From: Hyphomonas sp.
Lineage (GTDB): Bacteria; Pseudomonadota; Alphaproteobacteria; Caulobacterales; Hyphomonadaceae
Assembly (NCBI RefSeq): GCF_016125515.1
Contig: NZ_WGLO01000008.1
Location: 62,001-126,000, forward strand
Direction: 5' to 3'
DNA length: 64,000 bases
The notes under the pieces were generated by a model. That model did no database searches, was not told the DNA's origin, and saw only the letters and a program-made list of their open reading frames with translations. The stretch's first letter is position 1. Each line of letters begins with the position of its first letter. The translations under genes and the position numbers were made by a program. Shown here in pieces: positions 32,304 through 41,379 of this stretch.

Positions 32304-32919
32304 GACGTCGCGCCGCCTCCCTGACAATTAAAATGACCCCGGACCCACCACTGCGACTTGGAATCGCTTGATACGCGAAATTCCACCTTTGCTGGGCCGC
32401 CGTCAATTCTTCTTTCCAGCGTTCGCCCTTTGGGAAAACCCCTGTTGCTCCATTACACAGCCAGGGCGCGGCATAATCGAGAAGCTGTGTCATCGGCGCA
32501 AAGGCCCGTGCCGTGACATAATCGGCCTCGATCGGGGGCGCGGATTCGATGCGGCCCTGATAGACGTTCGCCGGGAGATCGGCCGCTTCGATCGCCGCCC
32601 GAAGGAAGGCGCACTTCTTTCCGACACTCTCCATCAGGGTCACATGGCCCGCCGGACGCGCGGCCGCGATCACCAGTCCGGGAAAGCCGGCGCCCGATCC
32701 GAGGTCGACGACTTTCGCCGTATCCGGAATGCGGTCGAGGAGCTGGACCGAGTCGCCGACATGGCGGGTCCAGATCTGCGGCCATTCTTTCGGGCCGATG
32801 AGGTTGCTCCGCGTTCGCCAGTCGTCGAGCGTGGCGATCACGCGATCGAGCCGCGCGAGTGTTTCACGTGAAACATCGTGAGCGGCGAGAAACGCCGCGC
32901 GGTCATTCTGGTCTGTCAT
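32290..32919 (-). CDS. rsmG: 16S rRNA (guanine527-N7)-methyltransferase
   Basis: A 209-residue class I methyltransferase that makes m7G527 in 16S rRNA. Motif I is VVDLGSGAGFPGLVIAAARP; LMESVGKKCAFLRAAIEAADLP follows with the family K-K-x-x-F-L. FAPMTQLLDYAAPWL and GVFPKGERWKEEL complete the fold. The DVSRETL segment is encoded by a perfect parS site at 32860-32875, a known way such sites hide in this gene. It starts 2 nt from the mnmG stop, so it is part of the mnmG-rsmG-parAB run. Confidence 0.95.
   Translation of the reverse strand: MTDQNDRAAFLAAHDVSRETLARLDRVIATLDDWRTRSNLIGPKEWPQIWTRHVGDSVQLLDRIPDTAKVVDLGSGAGFPGLVIAAARPAGHVTLMESVGKKCAFLRAAIEAADLPANVYQGRIESAPPIEADYVTARAFAPMTQLLDYAAPWLCNGATGVFPKGERWKEELTAAQQRWNFAYQAIPSRSGGSGVILIVREAARRHGQA
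32860..32875. promoter_or_regulatory. parS site 1 (perfect), inside rsmG
   Basis: The exact 16-bp palindrome TGTTTCACGTGAAACA, the consensus ParB-binding centromere. It lies within rsmG codons, about 7.5 kb from the probable origin, a distance like that in Caulobacter. Confidence 0.95.
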
Positions 32920-32921
32920 CT

Positions 32922-34787
32922 TTATCCTGCCCGGCGGATCCGTTTCACGTGACCGAGCAGCGCCGTCAAGGCGCCCGGCGTGACGCCCTCGATCCGGGCC
33001 GCCTGTCCGAGCGTCGCCGGACGAACCGCGATGAGCTTCTGACGGACCTCGTTCGAGAGACCACCGATGGCCGCGTAATCGAGATCAGCCGGAAGGGTCA
33101 GCGCTTCGTCCCGGCGAAGGGCGGCGACGTCTTCAGTCTGCCGATCCAGATAGGCAGCATAAAGCGCTTCGATCTCGACCTGGGCACGGACCGGCGCCGG
33201 GATCGACTCGAGCTCCGGCCAGACAGACCGGAGCTGCTCGAACGTGATGTCCTTGTAGGAAAGATACTCCCAGGCCGACCGCACACGGCCGTCCTGGTTC
33301 ACGGTCCATCCGGCCTTGGCGGCGGCGGCTGGCGACAGGGTCAACGACTTAAGGGTCGCGCGCGCCTCGTCGAGTGCGCGATGTTTCACGTGAAACATGG
33401 CGGCGCGTTCCGGGCCGACGCATCCGGCTTCCAGACCTCGCGGTGTCAGGCGTTGGTCCGCATTGTCAGCGCGAAGCGCGAGCCGGTACTCCGCGCGGGA
33501 GGTGAACATGCGATAGGGCTCGGTGACCCCCCGCGTTACGAGGTCATCGATCAGGACGCCGATATAGGCCTCGGCACGATCGAAGATCACCGGGTCCTTT
33601 CCGGCGGTCGCCCGGGCGGCGTTGAGCCCCGCCATCAGACCTTGGGCGCCAGCTTCCTCGTATCCGGTCGTGCCGTTGATCTGTCCTGCGAGATAGAGAC
33701 CCGCGAGAGCTTTCACTTCGAGGGCCGGGCTCAGGGCGCGCGGGTCAACATAGTCATACTCGATGGCATAGGCATGCTGGAGGATAACGACATCCTCGAG
33801 GCCGGGAATGGTCCGGATGAACTTGTCCTGGATCTCCTCAGGAAGCGAAGTCGATATGCCGTTCGGATAGACGGTGTGATCGTCGAGGCCTTCCGGCTCG
33901 AGAAAGATCTGGTGGCGGTCGCGGTCGGCGAAGCGTTGGACCTTGTCCTCGATGGAGGGACAATAGCGCGGACCCCGTCCGGCAATCGCACCGGAGTAGA
34001 CCGCCGACTGGGACATGTTCGCGTCAATGATCGCGTGGGTCTCCGGCGTCGTCCAGGTAATGCCGCACGATACTTGGGGCACGCGGATTTCGTCCGTCAG
34101 GAAGCTGAACGGGATCGGGGCTTCGTCGGCCGGCTGCATTTCGAGACGGTCCCAATGAATGGTCCGGCCATCGAGACGCGCGGGTGTTCCGGTCTTGAGA
34201 CGGCCCATCGGAAGACCGAGCGCATAGAGGCGGTCCGAAAGTCCGATCGCCGGCGCCTCACCGACCCGGCCCGCCGGGATGCGCCGGGCGCCGATATGGA
34301 TAACCCCCTTGAGGAAGGTGCCCGTCGTGATGACGACCCGGCCCGCGCGGTAGACCGTTCCGGTCAGACCGACCACGCCGGCGACCTTGCCGTCTTCGAC
34401 GATCAGGTCTTCGGCGCCGTCCTCGATCAGGGTTAGGTTCGGATAGTCTGCGAGTTCGGTTTGCATGGCCTGGCGGTAGAGCTTGCGGTCGATCTGGGAC
34501 CGGGGGCCCCAGACCGCCGGACCTTTGGACCGGTTGAGCATGCGGAACTGGATGCCGGCCTTGTCGGCGAGGCGTCCCATGACGCCGTCGAGCGCATCAA
34601 TCTCGCGCACGAGGTGACCCTTGCCCAGACCACCGATGGCCGGGTTGCAACTCATCTCGCCGATGGTCGACAGCTTGTGCGTGACGAAAGCGGTGCGCGC
34701 GCCGAAGCGGGCGGAGGCCGCCGCGGCTTCGCAGCCGGCATGGCCGCCGCCAATCACGATCACATCAAAGTCGGCCGGGTCCGGCAT
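32922..34787 (-). CDS. mnmG: tRNA uridine-5-carboxymethylaminomethyl modification enzyme MnmG
   Basis: A 621-residue FAD enzyme that, with MnmE, makes cmnm5U34 in tRNA. The start [23 protein letters not shown] is the FAD-binding fold. [21 protein letters not shown] and [17 protein letters not shown] are MnmG signatures. [20 protein letters not shown] and [24 protein letters not shown] follow. A perfect parS site encodes the MFHVKH insertion near the end. ATG 34787 overlaps a CtrA-type box (34787-34801). The gene lies 65 nt after mnmE and directly precedes rsmG. Confidence 0.97.
32941..32956. promoter_or_regulatory. Degenerate parS-like site
   Basis: Twelve of 16 positions match the parS palindrome (GTTTCACGTGA core intact; the right arm is degraded). 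It lies in the last codons of mnmG, between two perfect sites. ParB binding would be weaker. Confidence 0.5.
33382..33397. promoter_or_regulatory. parS site 2 (perfect), inside mnmG
   Basis: A second exact TGTTTCACGTGAAACA palindrome 522 bp from the first. On the coding strand it encodes MFHVKH, an insertion typical of parS-bearing genes. It lies about 7 kb from the probable origin. Confidence 0.95.
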
Positions 34788-39155: not shown

Positions 39156-40193
39156 TTATCCTTTTCGAATCCGGTCCAGAACACGCTCGACGTTGGCGAT
39201 CGGTGTTTCGGGCCTGACCCCGTGACCGAGATTGAAGATATGGGGCCGCCCGCGATAGGCGTCCAGAAGTTGATCCACCCGTGCGTCAAGACGCCCGCCG
39301 CCTTCGATCAGGAGGAGGGGATCAAGATGGCCTTGAACGGGGAAGTTTGCCGGCAGCGTGCTATTGATGAATTTCGGGGACGCCGCTGTATCGAGACCAA
39401 CCCCGGTCACGCCGGTCGCCTTCACATAGTCCGGCACCATGACGCCGGCTCCGCGCGGAAAACCGATGATCGGCACGGTGATCCCCATTCCGCGCAGTCG
39501 GTCGACGAGCTTTTTCGTCGGCGCGATGATAACTTCCTCGAAGATATTGTCCGGCAGACCTTCGGCCCAACTGTCGAATAACATCAGCGCATCAGCGCCG
39601 GCTTCCACCTGGCGGGCGAGGTAATGCGCTGTCGCCTCGCCGACGAGATCCATGGCTTCGGCGAGGTCCACCGGGCGGCCATGCGCCCAGCGCCAGGCAG
39701 CCGACTTGTCGGTTTTGCCCCGACCTTCGACGGCATAGAGCGTCACCGTCCAGGGCGAGCCTGCAAAACCCATGAGGGTCGTTTCCCGCGGCAAGGCCGC
39801 TTTAACCCGGGCGACCGTTTCATAAACGGGCGACAGCTTGTCCGCCGCTGCCTCTGGTTTGATCCGCCGCAGGTCCGAAGGCTGCGAAATCTCCTCCACC
39901 AGCGGGCCTTCACCCTTCTCGAACCGTACGCCGAGACCCATGGCGTCGAGGATCAGAAGGATGTCGGCAAACAGGATCGCTGCATCCATGCTGTAGCGGC
40001 GGATGGGTTGGAGTGTCGCTTCAGCGGCGAGGGACGGCGTGTAGCAGAAGTCGAGGAAGTCCCGTGCCCGCGCCCTGGTCTCGAGGTATTCCGGCAGATG
40101 GCGGCCAGCTTGCCGCATCATCCAGACCGGAGGCGGCGACACGACCTGACCCGCCAGAACGTCCAGTATTTTCTTTCCGCTGCTGCCCGCCAT
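39156..40193 (-). CDS. hemE: Uroporphyrinogen decarboxylase
   Basis: A 345-residue enzyme converting uroporphyrinogen III to coproporphyrinogen III. The start VSPPPVWMMRQAGRHLPEYLETRA contains the W-M-M-R-Q-A-G-R active-site motif. ILFADILLILDAMGLGVRFEKGEGP and GFAGSPWTVTLYAVEG follow with the conserved Asp and G-S-P-W-T. ILNLGHG-like FNLGHGVRPETPIANVE ends it. hemE is the last leftward gene and borders the origin-like gap, the same position it has beside Caulobacter Cori. Confidence 0.97.
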   Translation of the reverse strand: MAGSSGKKILDVLAGQVVSPPPVWMMRQAGRHLPEYLETRARARDFLDFCYTPSLAAEATLQPIRRYSMDAAILFADILLILDAMGLGVRFEKGEGPLVEEISQPSDLRRIKPEAAADKLSPVYETVARVKAALPRETTLMGFAGSPWTVTLYAVEGRGKTDKSAAWRWAHGRPVDLAEAMDLVGEATAHYLARQVEAGADALMLFDSWAEGLPDNIFEEVIIAPTKKLVDRLRGMGITVPIIGFPRGAGVMVPDYVKATGVTGVGLDTAASPKFINSTLPANFPVQGHLDPLLLIEGGGRLDARVDQLLDAYRGRPHIFNLGHGVRPETPIANVERVLDRIRKG

Positions 40194-40310
40194 GCAGACC
40201 CCCCTTCAAACCTCAATTCAACCCAGCCCGTCAGGGCGCTTATCATTATGATGCTGCGAATAGGTTGGAGAGCGCAGTTTCACCGGCTTTGTCCACCAAA
40301 ATCCACAAGG

Positions 40311-40494
40311 GAGTCACAGGAGTCGCTCGCCTGGGAGGCGAATAGAATCTTCACGAGTCTCAAAGTTAACGGGGTGTTAACGGCCCCCTTGGAATCACAG
40401 CGCGGAACAAGATGCGATCATCCGGAGTCGATTCCTTCCAACTGTGGAAAGCATGTGAGTCCCTGTGCAGTGCGCGGTTTTGCACAGGCGAGTC
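40311..40494. repeat. GANTC (CcrM methylation) site cluster
   Basis: Nine GANTC sites begin at 40311, 40320, 40345, 40355, 40392, 40425, 40430, 40457 and 40490. A random sequence this long would carry about one. Such sites are methylated by CcrM in alphaproteobacteria and mark hemimethylated, newly replicated DNA. Confidence 0.9.
40366..40380. promoter_or_regulatory. CtrA box in the probable oriC
   Basis: A perfect TTAA-N7-TTAA with spacer CGGGGTG, followed by C. In Caulobacter, CtrA bound at such sites in Cori blocks initiation in swarmer cells. Confidence 0.85.
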
Positions 40495-40511
40495 ACAACC
40501 CTTGTGCAAAT
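40443..40511. promoter_or_regulatory. DnaA-box-like cluster
   Basis: Four 9-mers resembling TTATNCACA: CTTTCCACA (40443-40451, minus), CACTGCACA (40464-40472, minus), TTTTGCACA (40478-40486, plus, one mismatch) and ATTTGCACA (40503-40511, minus). A further AAATCCACA is at 40299-40307. None is a perfect consensus, as is usual for Caulobacterales origins. Confidence 0.65.
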
Positions 40512-40536
40512 CGAGAAGCCCCGGCAAGAGAAACGC

Positions 40537-41379
40537 ATGACCCGGCCGACCCGACCCGCCATCTATTTCAACGTCCATCTCGTGTCGGACTCGACCGGAG
40601 AGACGCTGAACGCCGTCCAGCGCGCGGCCTGTGCCCAGTTCGAAAACATCCAGCCACTGGAACATAACTACTACCTTGTGCGCTCGGAACGCCAGCTTGA
40701 ACGCGTGACCCGCGAAATCGAGGCCGCGCCGGGTGTTGTCTGGTACACCATCTCGGACAGCGTGCTGCGGGCGCGGCTGGAGGCATTTTGCCGTGAGCGG
40801 AGCATTCCGACGCTGCCGGTGCTCGACCCGTCGATCGCCATGCTCGGCCGCCATCTCGGCATTTCCGCGAACAACCGCGTCGCCGGTCAGCACGCGATGG
40901 ACGAGGACTATTTCGAGCGGATGGAAGCGATCAATTTCACGCTTGCCCATGACGATGGCCAGAATGTCGACAGCCTGATCGGCGCCGATGTCATCCTTCT
41001 GGGCGTCAGCCGGACATCCAAGACACCCACCTGTGTGTACCTTGCCAACCGCAAGGTGCGCGCCGGAAACATCCCGCTGGTGCCGGGCGTGCCGCTGCCG
41101 GATTTCATCGAAAAGATGGGCGACAAGGGTCCGCTCGTTGTCGGCCTCAAGATTTCGGCGGAACGTCTCGTACAAATCCGGCGGCAGAGGTTGTTGTCGC
41201 TGAACCAGGATGATGCCGGCGATTACGCGGATGAGGAATCCGTGCGTGACGAGATCACCCAGGCGAACCGCCTGTTTCAGCGCAACCAGTGGAAAACCAT
41301 CGACGTGTCCCGCCGATCGGTCGAGGAAACGGCGGCAGCGATCCTGAATCTGCTCAGCGAGCGCCGGGGCCATCTATGA
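40537..41379 (+). CDS. Kinase/pyrophosphorylase PPSR (DUF299)
   Basis: A 280-residue DUF299 protein. Members regulate pyruvate phosphate dikinase or PEP synthase by ADP-dependent phosphorylation and Pi-dependent dephosphorylation of a Thr. The P-loop-like ADVILLGVSRTSKTPTCVYLANR is at about residue 150-172, followed by VPLVPG-type sequence and VVGLKISAERLVQIRRQR. The N-terminus IYFNVHLVSDSTGETLNAV is diagnostic. It is the first rightward gene after the origin, as RP001 is in Caulobacter. ATG 40537 has AAGAG upstream; longer starts lack conservation and would run into the DnaA-box cluster. Confidence 0.92.
   Translation: MTRPTRPAIYFNVHLVSDSTGETLNAVQRAACAQFENIQPLEHNYYLVRSERQLERVTREIEAAPGVVWYTISDSVLRARLEAFCRERSIPTLPVLDPSIAMLGRHLGISANNRVAGQHAMDEDYFERMEAINFTLAHDDGQNVDSLIGADVILLGVSRTSKTPTCVYLANRKVRAGNIPLVPGVPLPDFIEKMGDKGPLVVGLKISAERLVQIRRQRLLSLNQDDAGDYADEESVRDEITQANRLFQRNQWKTIDVSRRSVEETAAAILNLLSERRGHL

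Follow-up and report, generated by a model that had tools for sequence, protein, structure and literature searches.

GANTC methylation sites appear to be built into DnaA-type boxes at the probable chromosomal origin of Hyphomonas

Does adenine methylation help decide when a chromosomal origin may fire? One intergenic gap of Hyphomonas sp., crowded with GANTC sites, raises this question. CcrM methylates GANTC in alphaproteobacteria, and whether it polices a DnaA-dependent origin in these bacteria has been debated: overexpression in Caulobacter was taken as an argument for such a role, which lost ground once a ccrM deletion proved viable. The original prediction, made from a stretch of 64,000 nucleotides (the window), described nine GANTC sites in 184 bp of a probable origin, likened them to the GATC sites of E. 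coli oriC and suggested that the timing of hemimethylation may be read directly there. We found this interpretation partly supported; it had missed that four of the nine GANTC sit in DnaA-box slots.

The gap lies between the divergent genes hemE and PPSR, the layout of hemE-type Caulobacterales origins, and sequence matches place both a CtrA-type box and DnaA-type boxes within it (Table 1). A loose pattern for an IHF-like site gave no match in the gap. Two exact 16-mers about 7 kb from hemE, which we take to be parS from their motif, correspond to the pair of parS sites known next to parAB in H. neptunium. Marker frequency in that species was reported to peak close to hemE, and GC skew, dnaA and DnaA binding sites had given no clear origin (PMC6650430); CtrA ChIP near its ori has also been published (PMC7200025). 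In a complete Hyphomonas genome (G016), coordinate 1 is found ~257 bp upstream of PPSR, inside the same gap. Its neighbors, the CtrA-type and DnaA-type boxes, the two nearby 16-mers and the H. neptunium marker frequency bear out the earlier view of this gap as the probable chromosomal origin of this Hyphomonas.

Direct counting gave GANTC starts at 40311, 40320, 40345, 40355, 40392, 40425, 40430, 40457 and 40490, so the number and the coordinates first given (40311–40494) were exact. The strong excess also stood, but the ~0.7 sites then expected came from composition and the empirical figure is lower: the window holds 125 GANTC (0.36 per 184 bp), and a 464-kb sample of the 3.22-Mb genome (the window plus 20 stretches of 20 kb, ~14% of the total) holds 771 (1.66/kb, or 0.31 per 184 bp). 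Scanning in steps of 10 showed that 40311–40494 is the window maximum for GANTC per 184 bp; the next-densest separate 184-bp stretch of the sample, L127:4893–5076 on contig C4, has five. Chance or base composition could be proposed as the source of the cluster, and the AT-richer make-up of the gap is the sole point in its favor. However, dinucleotide shuffles, which preserve this make-up, gave a mean of 1.26 GANTC for the same 184 bp and 1.73 for the whole 343-bp gap, and none of 20,000 shuffles of either reached nine. Besides, GANTC was the top of 24 XYNZW pentamers (permuted A, C, G and T) in the gap, with nine occurrences against 0.57 expected from the sample and three for the runner-up (among the best 8 of the 24). 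Together with the slot conservation and the gaps of relatives described below (40 of 41 Hyphomonas gaps enriched), the shuffles rule this explanation out, and we regard it as vanishingly improbable.

The conserved region is broader than the GANTC cluster, with CACA-type 9-mers spanning 40299–40511, and the unit kept in the Hyphomonas alignment extends beyond GANTC: it reads GANTCACA, which is TGTGANTC when seen from the opposite strand. It accounts for 169 of the 328 GANTC in 41 Hyphomonas gaps. The 464-kb sample contains eight copies, four in this origin and four elsewhere, and 3–5 copies occur at each of nine loci from named Hyphomonas records (H. oceanitis, H. polymorpha and H. jannaschiana among them). 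A methylation cluster at dnaA was also considered and rejected, the 4 kb around dnaA of this genome having five GANTC, none within GANTCACA. CACA is the end of the DnaA box; the C. crescentus box TGATCCACA has G at position 2 and the H. pylori box TCATTCACA has T at position 5 (PMC4285127). Because published boxes allow these two letters (PMC4285127), NGANTCACA, with GA at positions 2–3 as in the Caulobacter G-box and CACA at 6–9, is compatible with a DnaA box. Of the 169 composites, 129 have a same-strand CACA at a distance of exactly 11 bp. Same-strand CACA pairs at this distance numbered 122 in the 41 gaps, versus 0.35 in shuffles. In this origin, three of the four composites are 11 bp (a 9-mer plus a 2-bp spacer) from another box; the weak (low-affinity) DnaA sites of E. 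coli oriC are reported to be spaced 2 bp apart (PMC6070618, PMC8488378).

Composites and DnaA-type boxes also replace each other in the same slots. Slot S0 is GANTCACA in 15 of 41 Hyphomonas gaps and a plain box in the other 26, with CACA in all 41 and three state changes on the flank tree, and slot S4 is GANTCACA in 35 and holds a different CACA 9-mer in the remaining six. In the rightmost 11-bp pair, the slot matching S4 reads TCCACA in all 28 gaps of the sister genus g15 (mostly Henriciella) and in 5 of 7 of group g19. The same rule found no 11-bp CACA pair in any of 10 g22 gaps or 23 gaps from other families of the order, and the box array is therefore not universal. These comparisons give good support to an overlay in which the composites would be DnaA-type boxes that are also CcrM sites; that they are weak boxes is judged from sequence. 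Nine 9-mers of this origin end in CACA, four with GANTC and five without it; likewise, four of its nine GANTC are inside composites and five are outside boxes (the doublet and three poorly kept singles).

Table 1. Features of the hemE–PPSR locus and its surroundings (window positions; ccrM is given on its own locus).
Feature	Position	Strand	Details
parS, exact 16-mer	32860..32875		motif match
parS, exact 16-mer	33382..33397		motif match
hemE, uroporphyrinogen decarboxylase	39156..40193	-	PF01208 E 3.4e-104; TIGR01464 352 bits over cut-off
hemE–PPSR intergenic gap, probable chromosomal origin	40194..40536		343 bp, 9 GANTC
DnaA-type box AAATCCACA	40299..40307	+	2 bp before composite S1; TCCACA unchanged in 39/39 aligned Hyphomonas
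Composite S1 GGAGTCACA (GANTC + CACA)	40310..40318	+	GANTCACA in 37/41 Hyphomonas
Single GANTC	40320..40324		poorly conserved
Single GANTC	40345..40349		few near relatives only
Single GANTC	40355..40359		few near relatives only
CtrA-type box TTAA-N7-TTAA	40366..40380		sequence match; such a box in 31/41 Hyphomonas gaps
Composite S2 GGAATCACA	40391..40399	+	GANTCACA in 40/41 Hyphomonas; without 11-bp partner here
GANTC doublet GAGTCGATTC	40425..40434		outside DnaA-type boxes
Slot S0, plain DnaA-type box CTTTCCACA here	40443..40451	-	GANTCACA in 15/41, CACA in 41/41 Hyphomonas
Composite S3 GGACTCACA	40454..40462	-	GANTCACA in 41/41 Hyphomonas; N = T14 G10 A9 C8
CACA 9-mer CACTGCACA	40464..40472	-	1 bp beyond S3
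DnaA-type box TTTTGCACA	40478..40486	+	2 bp before S4; CACA unchanged in 39/39 aligned Hyphomonas
Composite S4 CGAGTCACA	40489..40497	+	GANTCACA in 35/41, CACA in 41/41 Hyphomonas; matching slot TCCACA in 28/28 g15
CACA 9-mer ATTTGCACA	40503..40511	-	sequence match
PPSR, pyruvate phosphate dikinase/PEP synthase regulator	40537..41379	+	PF03618 E 2.6e-87; NF003742 315 bits over cut-off
ccrM	L002:1156-2235		PF01555 226 bits, PF18755 68 bits over cut-off (methylase + RAMA domains)

The pattern of change within the composites bears on which protein constrains them. In S3, N takes all four bases (Table 1) while every other letter is fixed in 41 of 41 Hyphomonas, which as related species are not independent counts. 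Counted by parsimony on a tree built from flanking coding DNA of 39 sequences (L004, whose gap is cut by a contig end, and L030, which has a diverged upstream half and a 754-bp gap, were left out here but are counted among the 41), the N columns of S1–S4 showed 4, 5, 5 and 5 changes, the other 28 columns eight in all, and the gap on average 3.45 per column. The composites therefore vary at exactly the base that CcrM ignores and hold constant bases that DnaA by itself would not require. In the same 39 sequences the plain box at 40299–40307 did not change at position 4 or 5, so that the freedom at position 4 reflects the degeneracy of CcrM and not that of DnaA. It is strong only in S3 and S2, since N is mostly G in S1 and S4.

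These observations weigh against a simpler reading, that Hyphomonas DnaA merely prefers GANTCACA-like or weak boxes and that methylation is incidental. The composite slots are indeed DnaA-type slots, and weak boxes are reported to be needed for regulated firing (PMC4468827). However, a free position 4 with a fixed T at position 5 is the reverse of the plain box and an exact match to the CcrM site, and GANTC is also enriched outside the boxes. GANTC is reported to be under-represented in coding DNA of the group (PMC3973325), which makes its creation by chance unlikely. The genome has a dnaA gene. Domain IV was aligned for 17 DnaA sequences representing nine genera or genus groups; they had been picked by means of the recognition motif, and one (G010, L145) is possibly a contaminant. 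No obvious change of the recognition region was confined to Hyphomonas, and altered DnaA specificity was rejected on this ground. We consider incidental methylation improbable.

We compared 120 hemE–PPSR gaps, 41 from Hyphomonas, 56 from other genera of the family and 23 from other families of the order, calling a gap enriched at p<=0.01 by 1,000 shuffles each. Left out were G050 (PPSR at a contig edge), G061 and G121 (no PPSR match), and G085, G098, G114, G123, G125 and G126 of the family search. As the original prediction implied, relatives keep the enrichment at the same place: 40 of 41 Hyphomonas gaps were enriched, as were 21 of 56 elsewhere in the family (g15, 10/28; g16, 2/3; g17, 1/1; g22, 8/10; g19, 0/7; others, 0/7) and none of 23 in the rest of the order. 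The enrichment is real, old within the family and patchy. The composite, judged by its sequence, is almost confined to Hyphomonas: gaps with at least one GANTCACA number 8 of the 56 from elsewhere in the family and 1 of the 23 from the rest of the order. GANTC doublets (spacing 5–6) occurred in 25 of 41 Hyphomonas, 13 of 28 g15 and 8 of 10 g22 gaps, with 10 in the 464-kb sample. In the sister genus g22, eight of ten gaps (L104, L106–L109 and L111–L113) carry 9–13 GANTC within ~380 bp. They contain tandem doublets but hardly any GANTCACA, and CACA pairs at 11 bp are missing, a second and different style of GANTC-rich origin.

The ccrM gene, on whose presence the original prediction depended, was found with methylase and RAMA domains (Table 1). 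It is the one PF01555 match in the genome and scores 611 bits with the NF050803 CcrM model, below the curated 830. Close homologues occur in 41 of the 42 Hyphomonas and, family-wide, in 103 of 105 genomes; completeness is 85% and 87% for the two genomes in which none was seen. The presence of ccrM was rejected as the cause of GANTC density: the gene is in 103 of 105 genomes and yet none of seven g19 gaps is enriched, and for this reason the enrichment is not a mere by-product of ccrM. The same gaps bear on another alternative, in which methylation-sensed (GcrA/sigma70) promoters of hemE and PPSR would overlap the origin, and GANTC would serve transcription and not replication. It would agree with reports of a general excess of GANTC in the intergenic DNA of bacteria with CcrM (PMC3973325) and of the use of GANTC by GcrA promoters (PMC3667746). 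But it predicts neither CACA nor the 11-bp spacing nor the swaps with DnaA-type boxes, and g19 and g15 have the same two genes, yet no g19 gap is enriched. This alternative, too, has a small probability in our judgment.

What the overlay would do for initiation we infer as follows. Most likely, the composites would act as weak DnaA boxes that can be methylated. Their state, fully methylated or hemimethylated, would tune the loading of DnaA, either by a direct effect or via a reader (GcrA, for example), and would contribute to restricting firing to one round per cycle. A more specific form would be a DnaA-dependent origin with several DnaA boxes rewritten as NGANTCACA, each a weak box plus a CcrM site, in which hemimethylation lowers DnaA loading and provides a once-per-cycle licence without SeqA; we judge this form to be on an even balance. 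CcrM acts late in the cycle in studied relatives (PMC3973325, PMC8116508) and would leave the composite boxes fully methylated before initiation; firing would turn them hemimethylated at once. Loading of DnaA on the weak boxes would then be poor, through a direct effect like that on RctB at the iterons of V. cholerae ori2, where full methylation is reported to raise RctB binding to GATC-bearing iterons (PMC2865523). Until CcrM returned the origin could not refire, which would amount to the licence, and a second reader may make use of the adjacent GANTC doublet. The strictest form, in which DnaA itself reads CcrM methylation, so that full methylation would license and hemimethylation bar orisome assembly in a SeqA-free once-per-cycle switch, with the doublet marking a second hemimethylation reader, is tentative and somewhat doubtful.

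The chief competing explanation invokes a separate reader, for example GcrA. In this SeqA-like occlusion, GcrA or another factor would bind to GANTC, methylated or hemimethylated, within the boxes and at the doublet, keeping DnaA from the weak boxes after firing, and DnaA would itself be blind to methyl groups. GcrA is present in the genome (PF07750, 167 bits), the doublet outside the boxes is common to Hyphomonas, g15 and g22, and E. coli SeqA is reported to block weak boxes that overlap GATC. However, a PF03925 profile search of the genome for SeqA gave no match at E<=1, and the preference of GcrA for methylated GANTC is reported to be for fully over hemimethylated DNA (PMC3667746), the wrong sign for a block after initiation. 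We consider occlusion unlikely, if less so than the readings based on transcription or on incidental methylation. GcrA ChIP-seq of H. neptunium exists (PMC7200025).

Methylation-tuned loading of DnaA has evidence against it as well. The composite is almost exclusive to Hyphomonas though ccrM is in 103 of 105 family genomes, five of nine CACA 9-mers lack GANTC, five of nine GANTC are outside boxes, S2 has no 11-bp partner, the freedom of N is strong only in S3 and S2, and the 17 aligned DnaA sequences, picked by the recognition motif, showed no obvious DNA-binding change confined to Hyphomonas. A C. crescentus ccrM deletion is reported to keep normal DNA-content profiles (PMC3973325), although an older statement holds that C. 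crescentus initiation needs full methylation (PMC2865523). Binding of RepC to its own origin was reported to be independent of methylation (PMC6090056).

Comparison with known systems places the locus among several. The likeness to E. coli oriC stated in the original prediction holds for anatomy, the sites here overlapping DnaA-box slots, but not for SeqA, given the PF03925 result. In oriC, methylation sites are crowded together and fall within or across weak DnaA sites, which neighbor strong ones at a spacing of 2 bp (PMC8488378, PMC4285127), with GATC reported inside R5M, tau2, I2 and I3; dense methylation sites overlapping sites of a weak type are likewise present here. Unlike oriC, this locus has GANTC and CcrM in place of GATC and Dam, and hemimethylation would last by enzyme timing, since CcrM of studied relatives works late in the cycle, and not by sequestration. 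V. cholerae ori2 is the nearest proven case of methylation-raised initiator binding (PMC2865523): each initiator site of RctB has an adenine-methylation site, head to tail at 10–11 bp (PMC6090056, PMC2865523). Here the initiator would presumably be DnaA on the main chromosome and the methylase CcrM; by sequence, four of nine CACA 9-mers carry a methylation site, three of these four being 11 bp from another.

C. crescentus Cori is also flanked by hemE; it contains a CtrA-type box and several GANTC, and its weak DnaA boxes (TGATCCACA) carry G at position 2 (PMC3973325, PMC4285127, PMC4468827). We met no published description of GANTC inside its DnaA boxes, in contrast to the Hyphomonas gap, and CcrM there is dispensable for initiation control (PMC3973325), unlike the role proposed here. 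Origins of repABC replicons and Agrobacterium ori2 are GANTC-rich in bacteria with CcrM, and a hemimethylation block has been proposed (PMC6090056, PMC11514494). However, these are RepC-dependent secondary replicons with the methylation-independent RepC binding mentioned above (PMC6090056).

GANTC in alphaproteobacterial origins and methylation sites inside initiator sites in gammaproteobacteria were already known. What is new here is a conserved unit, GANTCACA, in which GANTC appears to be built into DnaA boxes. In the literature searched, with subscription papers (e.g. Shaheen 2009, Taylor 2011) outside its scope and sources represented in part, we met no description of GANTC inside DnaA boxes. 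It was correct to call direct reading of hemimethylation not an established mechanism in this group, but there is prior ground, namely the GANTC of the C. crescentus origin, its initiation control intact in a ccrM deletion (PMC3973325) and the hemimethylation-block proposal for Agrobacterium ori2 (PMC11514494). The Hyphomonas origin adds a case to this debate in which the sequence itself keeps a CcrM site and a DnaA-type box in the same nine bases. If true, methylation-tuned loading would be a second and independent link between adenine methylation and initiation that does without SeqA, and the methylation mark of the last round could help tell the cell whether initiation may start again. The genus includes a laboratory model, H. 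neptunium, that can be synchronised; the search for DnaA sites that gave no clear origin in this species (PMC6650430) would have failed because about half of the boxes are disguised.

Several minor observations accompany these results. In the complete Hyphomonas chromosome, ccrM (G016:C1:1968468–1969544) is located about half-way round from the origin and would for this reason be copied late. One Hyphomonas has a second CcrM-like methylase (G099:C1:13612–14667), 52% identical, which lies ~0.1 Mb away from PPSR on the assumption of a circular contig. Within the gap, a block like GCCCGTCAGGGCGCTTAT at ~40228–40245, adjoining the hemE start, is strongly kept in Hyphomonas and may be part of the hemE promoter or an unwinding-side element, and CGGCAAGA at ~40520–40530, immediately before the PPSR start, is maintained throughout Hyphomonas.
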